Shown here: piece by piece, positions 4,284 through 13,522 of the stretch
Layout of the letters: each line of letters opens with the position of its first letter
Numbering within the stretch: the stretch's first letter is position 1
Assembly: GCF_014764505.1 (NCBI RefSeq)
Contig: NZ_JACXWX010000003.1
Coordinates: 62,001-126,000 of the forward strand
Reading direction: 5' to 3'
Length of the DNA: 64,000 nucleotides
Origin: Phormidium tenue FACHB-886
GTDB lineage: Bacteria; Cyanobacteriota; Cyanobacteriia; Elainellales; Elainellaceae
Position numbers and translations under genes: made by a program
The notes under the pieces: model-generated
The model's database searches: none
Told to the model about the DNA's origin: nothing
Seen by the model: the letters and a program-made list of their open reading frames with translations, nothing else

Positions 4284-6116
4284 TCAGCGCCGCTCCTGCA
4301 GGGCATTGCCCAGTCCCTTTAGGATGCCTCGCCCAACCAAACCAATTCCCCGCCCTACCACTTCAGTCAAGACATAGATCACGCTATTCCCAACCAATGA
4401 AATGACCGATCGCAAGCGAGGGGCAATTGCATCACGAGTTTCCAGGGCAAGCGTTACGGCAAAAGGAATGCCAGAAAGCTGCTCTAGCTCTTGGTTGCGT
4501 GGCGCATAGATCGCAGTTCGCTTAATGCCTTTCCAGGAGAAGACAAACAGTCGATATTGGCTTTCAAAGATCGCCTGTGGATTATGGAAGTAGCGCTCCA
4601 CTCGATATTTCCAAGAAAGATTATTGCGGAACCGCTCGATCTCGCGGCTAGAGAGCAAACGACGGTGATAAAAGGCTTCTTTGATAAGTTCTACGTTGGC
4701 AAAACGATTGAGCAAGGGCTGAATCACTGCGTTTGCCAGCTGGATCAGCAAATTTTCGGTGAGTAACTCGGCGCGGGCTAGCGCCTCAGGATTGCCAGAG
4801 GCATAGGCAACACTATCCACAACAAGCGGCGTTTGAAACAGCAAATGGTTTAGCAGTTCCACGACACCCGGAATTCTATCGAGAATGGCAAGCTGGACGA
4901 TCGCTGTATCTGCCAGCAGGGTGTTTACGACTTCGACCTCCGCTCCCTTGAAGCTGATAGTGTAGTACTTGCCAAAAAAATCCACGACGATCGCCTGCCA
5001 CAGATCCACCAGGATGAGCGATCGCTTTTGGGCGAGCTGAGCAGGCTGCACCTCGGAATAGCGGAGTTCGCTGAGTAAGTCCTCTAGCTTGTGCAGCACC
5101 AAGTAGAACAGCTCTCGCTTCTTGTCTTCCCGCAGAATATCTGTTTCCATCGGTGTTTCTGTTTCGTTCTCTAGGTTGGTCTGCAGCTTTGCCAACACAG
5201 AATCGAACAGCACAGATTGGAGGGTACGGGTATCGGTAGGGGAGGAAGAGAGACTGGATGAGGGCACAAGCGCACTGGCGGAGGGAGCTGGGGCAGTAAG
5301 TTGCGGGGGGGAGGAAATGGGGGTTGGTGGTGATTCTTTAAGTGGCTGTGGTTCGGACGGCTGTGATTCAGATGGCTGTCGTTCAGCCAAGAGCCAGATT
5401 ACTAGCCGTCGGGAGGCTCGCAGTTCGCGTTGCTGTCCGGCGAGGAGGGCGCGATCGAGCAGCGAAAGCTCTAGGCGTTGTAGTTCAGCGTTAACTTGAG
5501 AGAGGGCAGCATCAATTTGCTGAATGCCAGAGTTTCGCAGAGAAGAGCGGAACTGACGGATAAAGGAACGCTGCCTCACGGAAACGGCAGGACGGCGCAA
5601 GATTGAATCAGCAGAATCAGCACTTAGAGCAAGCACGCTTCTGCGGCTCTGGGGTTCTGCACCCGCCTCTACAAAGCGGGATCGACCACGTGCTACCTGC
5701 CGAATCGCCGTTACCAGCTCACCTGCCGATAAGGATTTAGCACAATAGCCCGTTGCACCTACCTGCTGAGCGGCAGCGACCAATACAGGTTCTGCGGTAG
5801 CACCCAAAAAAAGGACGGGAAGTTGAGGATAAAGTGTCTTGATCTGCTGACAAAGCGTAAGCCCCTGCGGGCGAGTGGGCTGTGTTCGACCTAAACCGAT
5901 GTCAAGAATGACTAGATCGATTGCAGGCACAGCTCCTGTCGCTTGGTTTACCAAGTACTGCAGTGCCTCTTCTCCGTCTGCCGCTTCTGCCTCAATCTGC
6001 AATTCTGGATATCGCTCTAGCCAAACTCGCAGCCCCAGCCGAAATACTGCATCTTCATCAATTAACAGTAACCGAAAGCGGCGATCGGCAATTTGAGGCA
6101 AGGCACCAGCACTCAT
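4284..6116 (-). CDS. Response regulator receiver domain fused to DUF3685-type domain
   Basis: The 610-residue protein has an N-terminal receiver domain (about 13-145) with acidic residues D20-E21-D22, the phospho-acceptor D72 in DLVILDIG and lysine K127 in YCAKSLS. A Ser/Pro/Gln-rich linker (about 245-300) leads to a 300-residue C-terminal domain that resembles the cyanobacterial and plastid DUF3685 family (DILREDKKRELFYLVLHKLE, and a hydrophobic C-terminus rich in VVGRGIGLVGRG). There is no DNA-binding helix-turn-helix, so the output is not obviously transcriptional. A strong GAGGAG sits 4-5 bases before the ATG. It begins 26 bases after the stop of the upstream repeat-protein gene, so the two are probably co-transcribed. 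Confidence 0.85.
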   Translation of the reverse strand: MSAGALPQIADRRFRLLLIDEDAVFRLGLRVWLERYPELQIEAEAADGEEALQYLVNQATGAVPAIDLVILDIGLGRTQPTRPQGLTLCQQIKTLYPQLPVLFLGATAEPVLVAAAQQVGATGYCAKSLSAGELVTAIRQVARGRSRFVEAGAEPQSRRSVLALSADSADSILRRPAVSVRQRSFIRQFRSSLRNSGIQQIDAALSQVNAELQRLELSLLDRALLAGQQRELRASRRLVIWLLAERQPSESQPSEPQPLKESPPTPISSPPQLTAPAPSASALVPSSSLSSSPTDTRTLQSVLFDSVLAKLQTNLENETETPMETDILREDKKRELFYLVLHKLEDLLSELRYSEVQPAQLAQKRSLILVDLWQAIVVDFFGKYYTISFKGAEVEVVNTLLADTAIVQLAILDRIPGVVELLNHLLFQTPLVVDSVAYASGNPEALARAELLTENLLIQLANAVIQPLLNRFANVELIKEAFYHRRLLSSREIERFRNNLSWKYRVERYFHNPQAIFESQYRLFVFSWKGIKRTAIYAPRNQELEQLSGIPFAVTLALETRDAIAPRLRSVISLVGNSVIYVLTEVVGRGIGLVGRGILKGLGNALQERR

Positions 6117-6142: not shown

Positions 6143-8455
6143 TTACTCATAGTACCGCTCGTCATAATACCCTTCGTAAGAGGCTCGGGGTCGCAGGGAA
6201 CGTTCTTCAACTGGGGGCGGAGGCGGGTTGTCGGAGGGGAGCGGGTCAGGTTCTACGATGATCGGCGGTTCGGGGTCAACAGGTTCAGGATCGATGGGTG
6301 CCTCAGGGCTGGTTTCAGCGGTGGGGCTGGGCGGTACAAGGTCAATACTGGGCAACGGTTCGGGGTCTGCCGAGAAAGGAGACTCTTCGGGTGAGTCCGT
6401 CGGCAAGTCGGGCGAGTTGGGGTCAACATCGAGATCGTAGGAGTCTAGATCGGGTAATGAAGGCTCTTCGATAGGGATAATTGGTTCTTGTGCTCGCCGC
6501 CAGCCGGCAATTGCCCCTTGAGCTTCGTTATAGAGTGCTCGCCCAGATGCGATCTGGCTGGCAGTGTTGATTGCCGCAGACAGATCGCCATTTCTGGCTT
6601 GGGCACGGGCACGTTCGAGAATCGGCTGATCGACAGCAAGCTGAGCCTTGATAATCTGCTGGGCTTGCCAATCAGCGATCAGCCCTTGAGCTTTTGCGTA
6701 GAGGGCACGACCCGATTGAATATTGGTGGCACGGGCGATCGCTGCGTCCAGATCACCCTGGCTAGCAAGCGCCACTGCTTGATCGAGGAATGGCTGGTCT
6801 TCGATCGCTTCAATCTGGTCTCGCCAAGTCGCAATCAAATCTTGCGATCGTCCCCTTAGAGCTCGTCCTTTAGCAATGTGGCTAGCTTGAGCAATCGCGG
6901 CTTGCAGGTCAGGTACTTTTCCAGATTTGGCGAGGGCTTCGGCGCGGGCTAAATAAGGCTGGTCTTCCATGCGCTCGATTTCGTCAACCCAGTAGGAAAT
7001 CAGCGTTTGCGCCTGTCTCCGTCGGGGGCGATCGGCTCCAATTTCTTTTGCCTGGGCGATGGCTAGCTGCAAACTCGATCGCTGCCCCAGACTAGCAGTA
7101 GTCGTTGCATACTGGAGCTGGATCATGTCTTGCAGCTGTGCCTGCCAGTTCTGCTGATGGATTTTGGCTTGCTTATAAAACGGGCTATCTGGCTTAATTT
7201 GTTTGATTGCTGCAACCGCCTCAGTCATATTCCATATTTGCGGCAGTGAGGGCAACCAACGCGAGTTAACCTGGCTAGCTAAACGGTAGGCGTTTCCAAA
7301 CTGGAGCAAATCGACAAGTTCAGGGCTGGGCTTAATATTATTTGGCAATTGCAGCAGTGTTGCCGCTGCCGTCGTGTCGCCTTGTTGCCATTTCTCAATG
7401 CCCATGCCCAGAAGCTTTTGGCTCCACTGCTGCACCTGCACTCGGGCATCAGCCTCGGCAAAGGTTTTTTGGGGTACTTGCTGCGCCAAGACGATCGCCT
7501 GAGTGAGCTGGGGGGCTGCACCACCCACCGCTGCTTTTTTAGCCTGGCTGAACACCTGCCACGCTTGCTTTTCAGCACCTAGCTGCTGCGCCAAAGCGCC
7601 TGCACGGGTGATGCGCCAATAGTCTTGGCTGAAGTCATCGAACTGGGTAATGTGCTGGTAGGCATCATTCCATCTCTGCTGCTTCATCGCAGCATGGGCT
7701 TTAGCGACGATCGCTTCTCCGGCTTGCCATTGCTTATTCCAGTAGGCAAGCGCTTCTTGGGCCTCGGCGTAGGTTTCGGTTGTTTTGGGGATGTGACTCA
7801 GGATGGCGATCGCGCTCTTGAGATCGCTCTGCAGCACTTTGTCGCGGGCGATCCGCAGCAGCTGCTTTGACCATTCTTCTTGAAGCCGTTTGGCTTCGCC
7901 CTGCAGCGGGTGGTCATTGTCCCAGCGTTTCACTAGGTTCAGCCCGGCGATAATTTTGTTTTGTTCACCCGATTGGGCAGCCTCACGAGCGCAGTAGAGC
8001 CGTTCGCCATCGAGCGTTAGCTCAGCCGGACTCCCGCAGTCAATCGGCGGCGGCAGCGTAACGAGCCACAGAACGGCAGCCGCTCCCATGCCCCCAAACA
8101 GCCCCAGTGCTGCTAGCCACAGCAGCGACCAGCGCCAAGGTTTCGAGCGGGGATCGGGTGGGGGAGGGGGTGAAGCAGGCGCTTTCGTAGGAGCAGGGCT
8201 AGCAGTGTCGTTGGCAGGGCTACTCGGTTGGGTAGAGGCTTGGACTTCAGAGGCTTGGACTTCAGAGGCTTGGACTTCAGACGCTTCGATATCGCTGGCA
8301 TGACTAATGGGCAGCTTCCCGGAAGCAGACTGAGGCGATCGTTCCTGCTTCGGGTGATCCAGGGGCGATCGGGTTTGCTGTAATTTGGTTTTACCTGCCA
8401 GAAATTTAGCAAATCGATTTTTGCCTATTCCAGAATTCAATTGCTGCTTTGTCAT
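6143..8455 (-). CDS. Single-pass membrane protein with degenerate alpha-helical repeats (paralogue A)
   Basis: The start is set at the ATG at 8455 (MTKQQLNSG) because GGGGAC lies a few bases upstream. An in-frame ATG at 8470 lacks such a site. The product is 770 residues: a cytoplasmic low-complexity head, one membrane helix (LLWLAALGLFGGMGAAAVLWL, about 120-140), then an extracytoplasmic repeat region with units of roughly 40-50 residues built on GRALYAKAQGLIADWQAQ-like helices, and an acidic Pro/Glu-rich tail. Relatives are often named chromosome segregation ATPase, but no Walker A or B motif is visible, so that name is not supported. It precedes the receiver-DUF3685 gene by 26 bases and has a paralogue immediately upstream at 8975-11062. 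Confidence 0.8.
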   Translation of the reverse strand: MTKQQLNSGIGKNRFAKFLAGKTKLQQTRSPLDHPKQERSPQSASGKLPISHASDIEASEVQASEVQASEVQASTQPSSPANDTASPAPTKAPASPPPPPDPRSKPWRWSLLWLAALGLFGGMGAAAVLWLVTLPPPIDCGSPAELTLDGERLYCAREAAQSGEQNKIIAGLNLVKRWDNDHPLQGEAKRLQEEWSKQLLRIARDKVLQSDLKSAIAILSHIPKTTETYAEAQEALAYWNKQWQAGEAIVAKAHAAMKQQRWNDAYQHITQFDDFSQDYWRITRAGALAQQLGAEKQAWQVFSQAKKAAVGGAAPQLTQAIVLAQQVPQKTFAEADARVQVQQWSQKLLGMGIEKWQQGDTTAAATLLQLPNNIKPSPELVDLLQFGNAYRLASQVNSRWLPSLPQIWNMTEAVAAIKQIKPDSPFYKQAKIHQQNWQAQLQDMIQLQYATTTASLGQRSSLQLAIAQAKEIGADRPRRRQAQTLISYWVDEIERMEDQPYLARAEALAKSGKVPDLQAAIAQASHIAKGRALRGRSQDLIATWRDQIEAIEDQPFLDQAVALASQGDLDAAIARATNIQSGRALYAKAQGLIADWQAQQIIKAQLAVDQPILERARAQARNGDLSAAINTASQIASGRALYNEAQGAIAGWRRAQEPIIPIEEPSLPDLDSYDLDVDPNSPDLPTDSPEESPFSADPEPLPSIDLVPPSPTAETSPEAPIDPEPVDPEPPIIVEPDPLPSDNPPPPPVEERSLRPRASYEGYYDERYYE
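8236..8280 (-). repeat. Three perfect 15-bp tandem repeats inside paralogue A
   Basis: The unit AGGCTTGGACTTCAG (plus strand) occurs three times without a mismatch. It encodes three copies of the pentapeptide EVQAS in the cytoplasmic head of the membrane protein. The length is a multiple of three, so copy-number change keeps the frame. Confidence 0.95.
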
Positions 8456-8744
8456 GAGTCCCCATCCCACACCGCACCATTCGGGCTAAATCAATCAACC
8501 GTTGCTAAAGGCTGTAGCGCTGCTATATTCGGTTTGCTGAGCTTGCTTGCAATCTTGCTGCTGAAGCTGCACTGCTATCTCTTACCCTTCATTATCTACA
8601 TCTACACAGGTAGTCAGCCTCGTCCAGCTCAAAATATTGAAGCCTGAAATGCTAAGAATTCAATATCTTCTTCAGCTCTCTTTCAGATCTCTGCCTTTTG
8701 ATGTCTGCTTAGAGCTGAGAAGTTGCTTTTTATGCTTTGAGGTT

Positions 8745-8974: not shown

Positions 8975-11062
8975 TTATTCGATTGGTGCTTCTTCACTCT
9001 CCCAGTCTTCAAATATTTCAGTTTCGTTTGTTTCAGTTTCGCTGGATTCTTCGATGGATTCAAAGCTGCCGTCTCGTTCCTCTAGCCAGGTTTTAATTGA
9101 CTGCTGCGCTTGGTCATACAGTTCCCGACCGGGCTGGATTCGGGCAGCAAGGTCGATCGCCATGGTCAGGTGTCCTTTGGCGGCAAGTGCGTTTGCCTGG
9201 GTCAGAATCGGTTGATCTTGAGCGATTTGGGCGTTGCGGATCTGTCCCTGCCAGGTTTGGATCTGTGCCTGCGCCTGCTCATGCAGGGCCCGACCAGGCT
9301 GGATTTTGCCTGCCGCTGCAATGGCATCATTCAGTTTGTTTTGTTTAGCGAGAGCGATCGCATCGTCCAGCAGCGGCTGGTCTTCGATGACTTCGATCTG
9401 TTTCTTCCAGTCAAGGATTTGGGTTTGCGCGGTTTGCCACAGGGGTTGATCTGTGGGGATCACTTGTGCTTGGGCGATCGCCTGCTGCAAATCAGCTTTT
9501 TCATTTGAGGCTGCCATTGCCTGCGCGCGAGCCAGATAAGGACGATCGCGCAGCTTTGCTAATTCTTCCTGCCAGCGAGCGATCAGCGATTGGGCAGTCA
9601 GGCGACCCGGACGATCCGGGGTGAGTTGGCTAGCCCGCTCTATCGCGGCTTCTAGAGAAGTCCGATCGCCTAAACTTGCCAGCACCTCAGCAAACTGCAG
9701 AGCAGTAATGTCTTGAAGCTGAGCAACCCAAGACTGCGATCGCGCCTGTGCTTCTGCATAGAAGGGGCTATCTGCGTTAATTTGCTGAATGGCTGCCGTG
9801 GCTTCCAGCAAATTCCATAGCTGCTGGGCGATCGGCAGATTGGCTAAGCCACTCGTTTGCTGCTGCGCTTGGCTAAATTGGATCAAATCTTTGCCTGCTG
9901 GCGGCAAGTTTGGATCAAAAGGAATTTTTTGGGCAGCGAGCAATGCAGCGTCGGTATTGCCCTGTTGCCACTGCTGCAGCGCCCAATTTAACAGAGTTTG
10001 GCTCCACTGCTGACGAGCAGCTTCGGCTTCTGGGGATGCCATTGTGCCAGGGGAAACAGCCTGAAGCAGGACGATCGCCTCTCCCAGTTTGGCAGGGTCG
10101 TTGCCCTTTGCTAGCTTCTGGGCCTGCGTTAGGGATTGCCGCGCCTCTTTTTCGCGTAGCACCCGCTTTCCCAGTGCATCTGCCTGCTGGAGGCGCCAGT
10201 AGTCATACTTCATGAAACCCATTTCTATGACCAGCGCTGAGGCTTCTTTCCAGTTTTGGGTTTGCATTGCCACTTCTGCCTTAGCATAGAGCACATCGCC
10301 CTTGTGCCACTCTGCTTTCCAGCTAGCGATCGCCTCTTGCGCCTGCTGGTAAACCCCGCTAGAAACAGGAATCTGCCCTGCTGCCTCCAAGCCGCCTGCC
10401 AGATCGTTTTGCTCAACTTTCTCGCGGGCATTTAGCAGCACCAATGCTGACCAATCATCTACAGACTGTCGCGCTTTTTCGTAAAAGGGCTGATCGGGCG
10501 ACCAGCCTTTGAGTAGCTCAATGCCCTGCAGCAAATCGGTGAGCTTGCCCGATCGGGCAATTTGCTGAGCGCAGTAGAGGCGCTGCATGGGCGATGAGTC
10601 AGATGCAGAAGGAGACACAGAGCGGCATTCAGGCAGCGGCGGCAAGCCAGTTAGCCACAGAAAGGCAGCCGTGCTCATGCCACCCAAGATGCAAAGGGTA
10701 CTCAACCAAACAATGAGCCAGTTCAAGGATTGCCGCGTCAGCCTGTATCTGGGCAGGTGCAATCGTGGAATGGGCGGAATCACCTCGATTACCAGTTGTT
10801 CGGTGAGTTTTGCCAAACGATTGGGAATCGGGGCAGCACCAGCCGAAATTACGGCTTCTGCCTCTGCCTGATCAAACGGAGGAGGCACGCTAGGCGACTC
10901 AGCGATGGGTGGGCTGATCGGCTGCTGCTGCCAAGCAGGGATCTTTAAGGGCTGAATGGGAGTAGAGCGCGATCGACGGCTCTGATCCATCAAATTGAAA
11001 GATAATGAGGCAATATCTTGAGATTCTTTAGAATTTGATGAGTTAAGCGACTCCTGTCCCAT
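8975..11062 (-). CDS. Single-pass membrane protein with degenerate alpha-helical repeats (paralogue B)
   Basis: This 695-residue protein shares its whole architecture with the downstream gene at 6143-8455: a cytoplasmic head, a membrane helix (LIVWLSTLCILGGMSTAAFLWL), a conserved cysteine pair region (LPECRS and RLYCAQQIARSG), and then repeats such as GRALHEQAQAQIQTWQGQIR and GRELYDQAQQSIKTWLEER. The motif DRPYLARAQAMAAS matches DQPYLARAEALAKS in paralogue A. It ends in an acidic tail. The two look like a tandem duplication that has diverged. The function is unknown; no catalytic motif is visible. A 519-base gap separates the genes, so they may be transcribed separately. Confidence 0.8.
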   Translation of the reverse strand: MGQESLNSSNSKESQDIASLSFNLMDQSRRSRSTPIQPLKIPAWQQQPISPPIAESPSVPPPFDQAEAEAVISAGAAPIPNRLAKLTEQLVIEVIPPIPRLHLPRYRLTRQSLNWLIVWLSTLCILGGMSTAAFLWLTGLPPLPECRSVSPSASDSSPMQRLYCAQQIARSGKLTDLLQGIELLKGWSPDQPFYEKARQSVDDWSALVLLNAREKVEQNDLAGGLEAAGQIPVSSGVYQQAQEAIASWKAEWHKGDVLYAKAEVAMQTQNWKEASALVIEMGFMKYDYWRLQQADALGKRVLREKEARQSLTQAQKLAKGNDPAKLGEAIVLLQAVSPGTMASPEAEAARQQWSQTLLNWALQQWQQGNTDAALLAAQKIPFDPNLPPAGKDLIQFSQAQQQTSGLANLPIAQQLWNLLEATAAIQQINADSPFYAEAQARSQSWVAQLQDITALQFAEVLASLGDRTSLEAAIERASQLTPDRPGRLTAQSLIARWQEELAKLRDRPYLARAQAMAASNEKADLQQAIAQAQVIPTDQPLWQTAQTQILDWKKQIEVIEDQPLLDDAIALAKQNKLNDAIAAAGKIQPGRALHEQAQAQIQTWQGQIRNAQIAQDQPILTQANALAAKGHLTMAIDLAARIQPGRELYDQAQQSIKTWLEERDGSFESIEESSETETNETEIFEDWESEEAPIE

Positions 11063-11258
11063 ATTTCGGCTCTGAAGTAATGTGAGTATCTGGGATATGC
11101 GTAGGCTAACCTGATGAAGCTAGTCCAGCTTACTCAGAAATTTCAGATTTAAACCATAAATGTGGATAAAGTTTAGCAAGTTGTGTCGCTTGCTACGCTA
11201 TGAGTAGCGCTAAGTAACAGCATCGAGATTAACGAGTCTTGCAACAGTCCTGCCCGAT

Positions 11259-12929
11259 CTAAGGCTCGCTGCCTTCAAGGGTCAGGAGCGAGAGCTGTAC
11301 GAAGTCGGAAGGGGGCTTAGCCCGAGTCGTGCGGGGCTTGCGCGGGCGCGATCGATGCGGCGGGATACTGACATGCGCCGTGAACCAAGTTCGGAGCGCT
11401 TGGGCCTGCACCAAATCGAGGCTATCTAGATCGAGCGGTGCGGGAAAGAGGGCGCGATTGCCGAGCAATGCCCAGCCAATTTCACTGCGGCGATCGGCAC
11501 CAAAGGGAACGATCGAGTCGGGCAATCTTGCTAGATGCGGCACGACGTTATCTTGATGTAAAAAAGTCTGGCGCTGCCGCTCTAGCTGAGCCACCCGACG
11601 CTGACGGGCAGCTTTATAGTTCAGGATCGGGGCGGGATAGTTTTTGAGACGAGGGGGTGCGCCCAGCTGGTCGGCTGGCAAATGCGCCACCTCAGGCACC
11701 CAACGCTTAATAAATAACCCATCCGGATCGCAGCGATCGACTGCTACCTGCTGGGGGTTATAAATCCTGGTCCAGGTTTTATCAACGCAGTGCGTTACCC
11801 CCGCCTGCATTGCCCACTGGTAATGGTCAATTGGGCAATCGCCGTCGATCAGATGCTGCATGAAGTGAAGCGCTCCATAGCGCCAATCCATGCAGAGCAG
11901 GTTACTGAGGAAGCTGGCATAGATAGCGCGGACGCGGAAATTGAGCTGCTGCCAGCCGCCTGTAGCCTGCAAACAGCGAGCGGCGGCATCCACGACTGGG
12001 AAGCCGGTTTGCCCAGTTTGCCATGCCTGATAAAGTTCTGCGTTGAAGTCCCAGCCATCTGCATCAAAAATGCTGTAGAGCGATCGCAACTCCAACTGCG
12101 GCAAGTAGCGAAATCGCTGGGCAAAGCCACTGCCCCAGCGCAGCCGAGAAATGAGCTGCTGGCGGCTGCGTTCGGCGCGGGGGTTAGTTAAGGGAGTGCG
12201 TTTGGCGATCTGAATGCATTCGCGGGTGGAAATAACGCCAAACTTGAGATGGGGACTCAACCCGGTTGTGGCTTCGGCACCTGGATAGGAGAGCTGCCAG
12301 TAGTAGCGATCGACTTTTTCTGACAGAAAAGCCTGCAAGATCTGCCGAGCGGCGGCGGTGCTAGCGGGCGGGATGGGCTTATTGTCGGCGATCAGCCCCA
12401 GATCGGCCAGTGAAGGCAACGGCTCACTATGAACTTCTGGCGGGACGAGCAGACGAGCCGGCGTGGGAGCGGGGCTGTCCTGCATATCGCTGTACCAAAA
12501 ATCTCGATAGTCTGGGTAGAACAGCAGATCGGCTGTGCCTGCGGCTGGCTCAAACCAGCGGATTTTCATCTGCTGATCGGCTAAAGCTTGGTTGAGGCGT
12601 GCATCACGGACGCGCCCATAGATGCGTTCGTAGTCAATGTGGGCGTAGATGCCTTCGGCTTGGGTTTCGCGCACAAGCTGCGGCAGCACCTCCACCGGAT
12701 CGCCGTAGCGCACGATCAAACGTCCGCCGTACGATCGCAAGTCCTGATCGAGACTCGCCAACGCTTCTAACATAAATGCAACCCGTGCTGGGGCCGTTTC
12801 AGGATGGTGCAGCAGGGCGCGATCGAACACAAAAACAGGAATAACGGCTCCCCGGAGTGCCGCTCGATACAGCGGCGCATGGTCGGCAATTCGCAAATCT
12901 CGTCGAAACCAGACGATCGTACGGTTCAT
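11259..12929 (-). CDS. Photolyase/cryptochrome superfamily FAD-binding protein, atypical active site
   Basis: The 556-residue protein has an N-terminal Rossmann domain (TIVWFRRDLRIADHAPLYRA) and a C-terminal FAD domain (QTGQTGFPVVDAAARCL, LCMDWRYGALHF, FIKRWVPEV). Set against E. coli PhrB from memory, W349 and W372 match two electron-transfer tryptophans. The residue facing flavin N5 is D368 (LIDGDCPIDHYQW) where CPD photolyases have Asn; plant cryptochromes have Asp. The usual WMHNRLRM segment reads WQQLNFRVRA, so the Asn and Met that contact the lesion are absent. A basic tail (RSRPRKPRTTRAK) could bind nucleic acid. Membership of the superfamily is clear; CPD repair activity is doubtful. 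Confidence 0.88.
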   Translation of the reverse strand: MNRTIVWFRRDLRIADHAPLYRAALRGAVIPVFVFDRALLHHPETAPARVAFMLEALASLDQDLRSYGGRLIVRYGDPVEVLPQLVRETQAEGIYAHIDYERIYGRVRDARLNQALADQQMKIRWFEPAAGTADLLFYPDYRDFWYSDMQDSPAPTPARLLVPPEVHSEPLPSLADLGLIADNKPIPPASTAAARQILQAFLSEKVDRYYWQLSYPGAEATTGLSPHLKFGVISTRECIQIAKRTPLTNPRAERSRQQLISRLRWGSGFAQRFRYLPQLELRSLYSIFDADGWDFNAELYQAWQTGQTGFPVVDAAARCLQATGGWQQLNFRVRAIYASFLSNLLCMDWRYGALHFMQHLIDGDCPIDHYQWAMQAGVTHCVDKTWTRIYNPQQVAVDRCDPDGLFIKRWVPEVAHLPADQLGAPPRLKNYPAPILNYKAARQRRVAQLERQRQTFLHQDNVVPHLARLPDSIVPFGADRRSEIGWALLGNRALFPAPLDLDSLDLVQAQALRTWFTAHVSIPPHRSRPRKPRTTRAKPPSDFVQLSLLTLEGSEP

Positions 12930-13522
12930 CCCATCTCAAGCGCGTAGATCCTGTTAACCACTGTAACGAAACCTCAAGGATTGTGTGGCTTGAGAGGATG
13001 TTTGAAAAGTGTTTTTTAATACCCCTATGTTGTTCGACTCCCCTAAATCCCTCTACCTTTCTAGGAGGCAAAGCCGGTGCTGCTGATTTCTGGGATGATT
13101 TTCAAGTGAGAAGGGCACGGAGCGCCCCTCACTTAAAAATCATTCCCCTGATAAGCAATGCCGCAAAGCCTAAGAAAAGAGGGACTTTGAATAGGTCGCT
13201 TCCCCTTTTTAAGGGGAGCCAGGGCGATCGACAGCGCTAAGGTGTAAAAAGGATTTTTCAAAAATCCTTAAGGCGGCAGGGGTGATCGAAGAAGCTGCAC
13301 GCTGCGCCACTCTTCTAGGAGATCGTTAGCTAAACGCTTCCAGGTTCAAGGCTTAACTGTATAATGGCTTGTCAGCTCTGAAGAATCGTTATCAAAAACG
13401 AACGCTTCAGATTCTCAAGCTTCCATAAAATCTCTATAATCGCCTCAAGGCTGCGCTGGTGCAGCAAGACTCGATCGAGCCGCTACGAGATTTAACGAGC
13501 AGCCCTTCTCCTAAATTCCATC
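12930..13522. repeat. Divergent intergenic region with strong hairpins (repeat copy B)
   Basis: No gene is supported here. It separates the divergent photolyase and coaD genes and must hold both promoters. A long inverted repeat (arms 13092-13110 and 13128-13147, one bulge and one mismatch) encloses a GGGC/GCCC inner pair. TCCCCTTTTTAAGGGGA at 13201-13217 and a perfect 10-bp palindrome at 13249-13269 (AAGGATTTTT with its complement) follow. The C-run, AAAG and GGGG style matches the dispersed modules at 8.8, 26.2 and 57.5 kb. Confidence 0.5.

Follow-up and report, generated by a model that had tools for sequence, protein, structure and literature searches.

Photolyases are usually thought to reach their lesions by diffusion, and in CPD photolyases a glutamate of the lesion site is important. 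Plant cryptochromes (plant CRY) belong to the same family and have a C-terminal extension. For all aligned positions discussed here, we take the residue roles, lesion contacts and electron chain alike, to be those of E. coli photolyase. The beta-clamp-binding motif was reportedly first surveyed by Dalrymple (2001) and Wijffels (2004). As defined in the accessible text of a clamp review, it reads Q-aliphatic-x-[L/M]-[F/L], or the same pattern with an additional residue ahead of the final one (PMC11139829). The available part of this review never mentions photolyase, and a literature search that covered few subscription papers and drew largely on abstracts found none linking photolyase to clamp-binding. 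Among described photolyase relatives, phr1 of marine Synechococcus RS9916 increased survival of UV-C, and not of UV-B, in an E. coli strain lacking phr and SOS, and its full effect on survival required light (PMC9426592). According to the accessible portion of that paper, Phr1 is a proposed CPD photolyase, a phr1-like protein of Vibrio cholerae is cited as an MTHF-type cryptochrome, and UV-C is said to yield a greater (6-4) product to CPD ratio.

We analysed a window of 64,000 nucleotides, the whole stretch of Phormidium tenue FACHB-886 DNA considered here. A complete ORF of 556 aa occupies 11259-12929 on the minus strand (12929 to 11259). Both Pfam domains of the photolyase/cryptochrome family, PF00875 and PF03441, scored above their curated cut-offs (113.2 and 159.8 bits), and together with the predicted photolyase fold they place the protein in this family. 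The preliminary description of a photolyase homologue was thus borne out, the ORF filling exactly the span then proposed. Five NCBIfam photolyase/cryptochrome models matched and none reached its cut-off: TIGR03556 was far below (245.6 versus 884.6 bits), and the CRY-DASH model TIGR02765 gave 154.2 versus 317.05 bits. The DPRP N-terminal domain PF04244, a mark of FeS-BCP and prokaryotic (6-4) proteins, was absent among the Pfam families of the 556-aa protein. Three further relatives are encoded in the same 8.9-Mb genome, namely a class I homologue, a DASH homologue and a DPRP/FeS-type protein; the gene is therefore a fourth member and not the organism's sole photolyase.

The AlphaFold2 model (mean pLDDT 86.7) was compared with solved structures. 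VIA-align matched model residues 2-456 to 1owl with Z 37.2 and rmsd 2.2 over 444 aligned residues at 32% identity, a comparison that tests the photolyase core and barely covers residues past 459. Arabidopsis CRY1 (1u3c) matched with Z 34.1. Within residues 1-456, the pLDDT of ten-residue blocks was mostly 84-97, and lower at 211-220 and 361-390. Values fell below 50 at residues 364-367, beside D368, and at 519-556. The flavin loop, modelled at low confidence, is a weak point of any mechanism. Coordinates of all features are collected in Table 1.

Table 1. Features of the 556-aa photolyase homologue, with positions in the window
Feature	Position	Strand	Basis
Photolyase homology region, residues 1-456	11562..12929	minus	VIA-align to 1owl; AlphaFold2
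R262, replaces lesion-contacting Glu of class I	12144..12146	minus	profile and L-INS-i alignments
W293, aligned with distal Trp of electron chain	12051..12053	minus	profile alignment; in 8/12 family rows
Lesion site N330-F331-R332-V333-R334-A335	11925..11942	minus	F331, A335 replace class I Asn, Met
W349, aligned with middle Trp of electron chain	11883..11885	minus	invariant; both alignments
D368, flavin N5 position	11826..11828	minus	invariant in 42/42; profile and L-INS-i alignments
C-terminal extension past photolyase fold, residues 457-518	11376..11561	minus	conserved in family; pLDDT blocks 76-94
Predicted disordered tail with basic linker, residues 519-556	11262..11375	minus	pLDDT <50; linker charge
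QLSLL, Q545-L549, beta-clamp-binding motif match	11283..11297	minus	motif search
Stop codon	11259-11261	minus	ORF call

D368 follows LIDGD and CPI and was placed opposite the E. coli PhrB Asn by both the profile and the L-INS-i alignments; in the latter, plant CRY1 and CRY2 have Asp in this column. The earlier alignment of D368 opposite the PhrB Asn and the CRY1 Asp is therefore upheld. A 42-row alignment of the family revealed D368, N330, F331, R332, R334, A335, R262, W265, W349 and W372 to be invariant. Where class I has Glu/Asn/Met, all 12 family rows examined have R262/F331/A335, and three extra residues surround the Trp preceding the lesion site. The altered lesion site claimed from the sequence was accordingly confirmed and is now more exactly defined. 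Two additions to that first account are the Glu-to-Arg change at 262 and a C-terminal tail motif described below. It had also proposed that two tryptophans of the electron chain are kept; W349 and W293 do align with the middle and distal Trp, the second in 8 of the 12 rows. The flavin-proximal Trp is ambiguous, falling on Y370 in the profile alignment and on W372 in a gapless one; the sequence WQW in three sister proteins (L094, L096, L100) favours Y370. At a substrate-recognition position, Met has been assigned to CPD, His to (6-4), Gln to DASH and Val to plant CRY proteins in the accessible text of PMC7560933. Judged from its letters, this position appears to be that of A335, and Ala would be none of the listed residues.

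In order to place the protein, we built a tree of 60 rows. The family of the window's gene (12 rows) received a support of 100/100, and the 16 known-class rows (class I, class III, DASH and plant CRY) were split from the other 44, also with 100/100. Removal of five long rows left this split with an SH-aLRT of 100 (42 versus 13 rows); the trees are unrooted and do not include animal CRY, class II and FeS-type rows. The phylogenetic check proposed in the preliminary description thus gave no clustering with class I or class III photolyases. A single clade of the family and plant CRY was rejected (88 log units worse, p-AU 8.2e-5 in a quick tree). Outside the family, 32 sister-clade rows kept R262 in 31, F331 in 30 and A335 in 31 cases, while at N5 they had mostly His (19 rows), with Asn (7) or Asp (6) in the rest. 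The proteins with the Arg/Phe/Ala pocket form a distinct branch, here named the R-F-A branch. Since a class I-like protein of Natrinema (L128), with Gln for the lesion Glu, also has Asp at the flavin N5 position, Asp near N5 alone is not the mark of a cryptochrome and should not serve for calling one.

The protein ends in FVQLSLLTLEGSEP, with QLSLL at residues 545-549 in an accessible tail (pLDDT <50). Within the last 35 residues, the strict clamp motif was found in 70 of the 80 complete family ORFs, a count set apart from second copies (L004, L005, L006, L088, L090, L093) and from five family ORFs whose locus contains no stop, and shuffling, which ignores kinship, expects 1.17. Allowing a terminal Trp raised the number to 74 (1.31 expected on the same basis). 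The six ORFs lacking even the relaxed motif comprise three that end early (L058, L065, L085), one with QLSLK (L037) and two with QLDFL (L043, L047). The motif was present in none of L094, L095 and the short piece of L074, counted apart (0/3). As a background from the same loci, 435 ORFs with a length of 250 residues or more had the motif in 9 cases for the last 35 residues and in 5 for the last 15, against 63/71 photolyase ORFs for either length. The 30-residue segment ahead of the motif is basic, with a mean net charge of +5.1, and shows little conservation (mean pairwise identity 0.08-0.15); for the motif 4-mer, mean pairwise identity is 0.86, high partly by construction.

Controls of known class (27 class I-like, one class III and one DASH), all carrying class I/III or DASH lesion-site letters, showed no beta-type motif (0/29). 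In a first control count, made before the tree, 1/22 had matched; the matching protein, L096, now counts as a sister on the strength of its position in the tree and its R/F/A residues, and this move, like that of L100, came after the first motif count. The same genome encodes DnaN, a DinB ending in QLALNL, which is a strict match, and a MutS with QLDIF near its end, a near match. The DinB-like endings QLALNL or QLVLNL are also found in three family members (L089, L038, L039).

We then considered the tails of the sister clades, whose rows come from 26 plasmid regions among 192 to 205 matching records per search. Complete bacterial sister rows carried the strict motif in 10 of 23 cases (0.17 expected), some of these rows being near relatives (L131/L132, L137/L138, L100/L118) and the count being set apart from L130, L133, L134 and L135 (stretch without a stop) and from L144 and L145 (doubtful ends). 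A Duffyella protein, for instance, ends in QLDLF, and L135 has QLCLDF at the edge of its stretch. The 13 without the motif include Vibrio/Salinivibrio and Nostoc/Tolypothrix types. The beta-type motif was found in none of seven haloarchaeal sister rows. Instead, a C-terminal PIP-type Q..L..[FY] was present in 6/7 of them (L121, L152, L153, L122, L117 and L155; 0.04 expected), three with Phe and three with Tyr, e.g., GQASLDAFE; all seven rows come from plasmids, three from one genus, and they are partly close relatives, the matches H31, H46 and H58 lying outside the sample. The three Phe tails agree with QxxLxxF, the definition of the PIP motif given for Haloferax in the accessible part of its source. 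PIP-type matches among known-class controls were 1/29, below the 1.64 expected. The case for a putative sliding-clamp tail is made most strongly by this apparent switch of motif type between domains of life.

Two Deinococcus plasmid sisters (L116 and L157; 752 and 757 aa) are photolyases fused to uracil-DNA glycosylase (UDG), and the plasmid search returned seven Deinococcus rows with a uracil-DNA glycosylase label under the match. In Salinivibrio (L119) and Tritonibacter (L120), the sister photolyase gene has a small DUF2256 gene overlapping it or immediately after it. The Halorubrum gene L122 of the R-F-A branch has one internal stop and is annotated as two genes.

The C-terminus of RS9916 Phr1 can be read from published primers, since translation of the phr1 reverse primer gives DQQLQLEL-stop; the phr3 primer gives LYATIRS-stop (accessible text of PMC9426592). 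DQQLQLEL resembles picocyanobacterial C-termini of the R-F-A branch (QQLSLEF, QQLTLEL), while LYATIRS resembles those of class I. Phr1 thus probably belongs to the R-F-A branch, as a sister, an assignment drawn from this C-terminus alone. A search for the phr1 primer in 121 genomes of one family gave one match, with 2 mismatches and no photolyase ORF there.

To determine how widespread the family is, genome contigs were scanned and 96 relatives were confirmed. The best 80 of these 96 are all titled cyanobacteria, many Leptolyngbya-like and others of Pseudanabaena and Cyanobium/Synechococcus types. In a sample of 386 genomes of the phylum, a match of >560 bits was present in 8; two further genomes had, respectively, a 228-residue fragment and a 40% relative. 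Within the order, 27 of 36 genomes had a family match (E <1e-90), which in one (G495) is a fragment with stops and in two (G490, G505) is split in two pieces. No adjoining gene was common to most loci in 81 stretches scanned; the commonest immediate neighbour recurred in 15/81 and does not adjoin the window's gene. Searches for viral relatives gave 8 pattern matches, none confirmed, no defence-system model matched, and a promoter/terminator scan of 11000-13500 gave no clear excess above shuffles. Also on the minus strand of the window, 4287-6116 encodes a response-regulator receiver domain joined to DUF3685, and 6146-8470 and 8978-11062 encode two adjoining long proteins, similar by eye, each with a sub-cut-off Pfam match to one repeat family and possibly tandem paralogues.

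By computation, the protein has a photolyase fold, a place on a distinct branch, changed pocket residues and a conserved clamp-type motif. The best-supported reading, which we consider moderately probable, is that of a photolyase whose lesion pocket has changed and which is held on the replication clamp by a tether. The flexible C-terminal tail would dock on the DnaN sliding clamp via QLSLL, and from the motif we infer that it binds DnaN. Once tethered, the enzyme would scan DNA at the replication fork or where gaps are filled behind it, and flip out a UV photoproduct. This would be reversed by electron transfer from light-excited reduced FAD, presumably bound and catalytic, with recharging through W349 and W293. 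The lesion may be other than, or go beyond, the classic double-stranded CPD. More tentatively, the whole R-F-A branch of bacteria and haloarchaea may have been recruited to replication by beta-type and PIP-type motifs, respectively, which would couple photorepair to the replisome, the pocket handling lesions met at the fork; this broader proposal is plausible to us without commanding belief. Candidate lesions for an Arg/Phe/Ala pocket with Asp, His or Asn at N5 would be, for example, those in template or gapped DNA and deaminated dimers. The Deinococcus UDG fusions would fit deaminated dimers, because reversal of a deaminated dimer leaves uracil.

The Asp at the N5 position, the 100-residue C-terminal extension with its disordered end and the loss of the CPD-contact residues would also suit a cryptochrome-like blue-light sensor, in which D368, as in plant CRY, would protonate the flavin radical, while the tail would be a signalling extension. 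The V. cholerae protein, cited in the accessible text of PMC9426592 as a cryptochrome, favours the same view. Yet this Asp is shared by a class I-like protein, and most sister rows have His or Asn; furthermore, the tail carries a motif of the clamp type, uracil-DNA glycosylase forms part of two sister proteins, and no neighbour gene is common to most loci. With a joint clade rejected (p-AU 8e-5) and the Asp not diagnostic, we hold a sensor to be quite improbable, and the plant-cryptochrome-like, light-sensing role suggested at the outset is not supported. What stands of the altered role then envisaged is the non-standard lesion site, Arg/Phe/Ala being found across a branch outside class I/III. 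Taken together, the tail motif, the UDG fusions of sisters and the published survival of a probable sister point to DNA repair.

Within repair, QLSLL might serve a non-clamp purpose in a photolyase that acts on a different lesion or DNA state, such as (6-4) products, Dewar isomers or single-stranded CPDs. The R/F/A pocket would agree with this, as would the protection of E. coli against UV-C and not UV-B by Phr1, probably of the same branch (accessible text of PMC9426592). We nevertheless find a non-clamp tail unlikely, given that bacterial tails have the beta-type motif and haloarchaeal tails the PIP-type, each matching the clamp of its domain, and that no other partner explains this simply. 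The idea that the family fills a missing (6-4) activity is also weakened: PF04244, and with it a DPRP/FeS-type homologue, the kind usual for prokaryotic (6-4) proteins, occurs in 7/8 phylum-sample genomes with a >560-bit match, the genome studied here included. As this genome already has class I, DASH and FeS-type homologues, an extra repair enzyme is not obviously needed. The Glu-to-Arg change removes a residue important in CPD photolyases and could therefore mean lost catalysis; with three lesion contacts lost and the flavin loop modelled at low confidence, the protein might be a redundant or catalytically inactive derivative of class I in which DNA binding was retained. Many core residues are, however, invariant across 42 orthologues, and the family match extends to 27/36 genomes of the order, so that we regard such a derivative as very improbable.

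What is new here is a clamp-type tail motif on a photolyase relative. If the clamp-tethered reading is true, direct light repair would be coordinated by the clamp, as translesion synthesis and mismatch repair are, with one solution shared by two domains of life. This reading would also give a reason why Phr1 acts against UV-C only, an effect judged inconsistent with a CPD photolyase in the accessible text of PMC9426592, and provide a candidate class for unassigned photolyase genes of cyanobacteria and haloarchaea.

Compared with known systems, the closest solved fold is that of the class I CPD photolyase of the 8-HDF type from Anacystis nidulans (1owl/1qnf), which shares the two domains and the W349/W293 Trp pair. 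In contrast to it, the protein described here has Arg/Phe/Ala for Glu/Asn/Met, Asp for Asn near N5, three extra residues, a C-terminal extension and the clamp-type motif. Plant CRY1 and CRY2 share the Asp at the flavin N5 position and resemble it in having a C-terminal extension, but stand on a separate branch, with Leu at the position of W265 and Val at that of A335. The tail of RS9916 Phr1 is like those of picocyanobacterial proteins that lie on the R-F-A side of the split and have the R/F/A pocket; these Phr1-like relatives form a sister clade with His, not Asp, near N5. Haloarchaeal proteins named photo-lyase/FAD-binding domain proteins (L117, L121, L122, L152-L155) belong to the same branch and have the same pocket, whereas they differ by Asn near N5 and a PIP-type tail in 6/7. 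Finally, DinB and MutS are unrelated enzymes, of which the DinB of the same genome carries a strict clamp motif and the MutS a near match.
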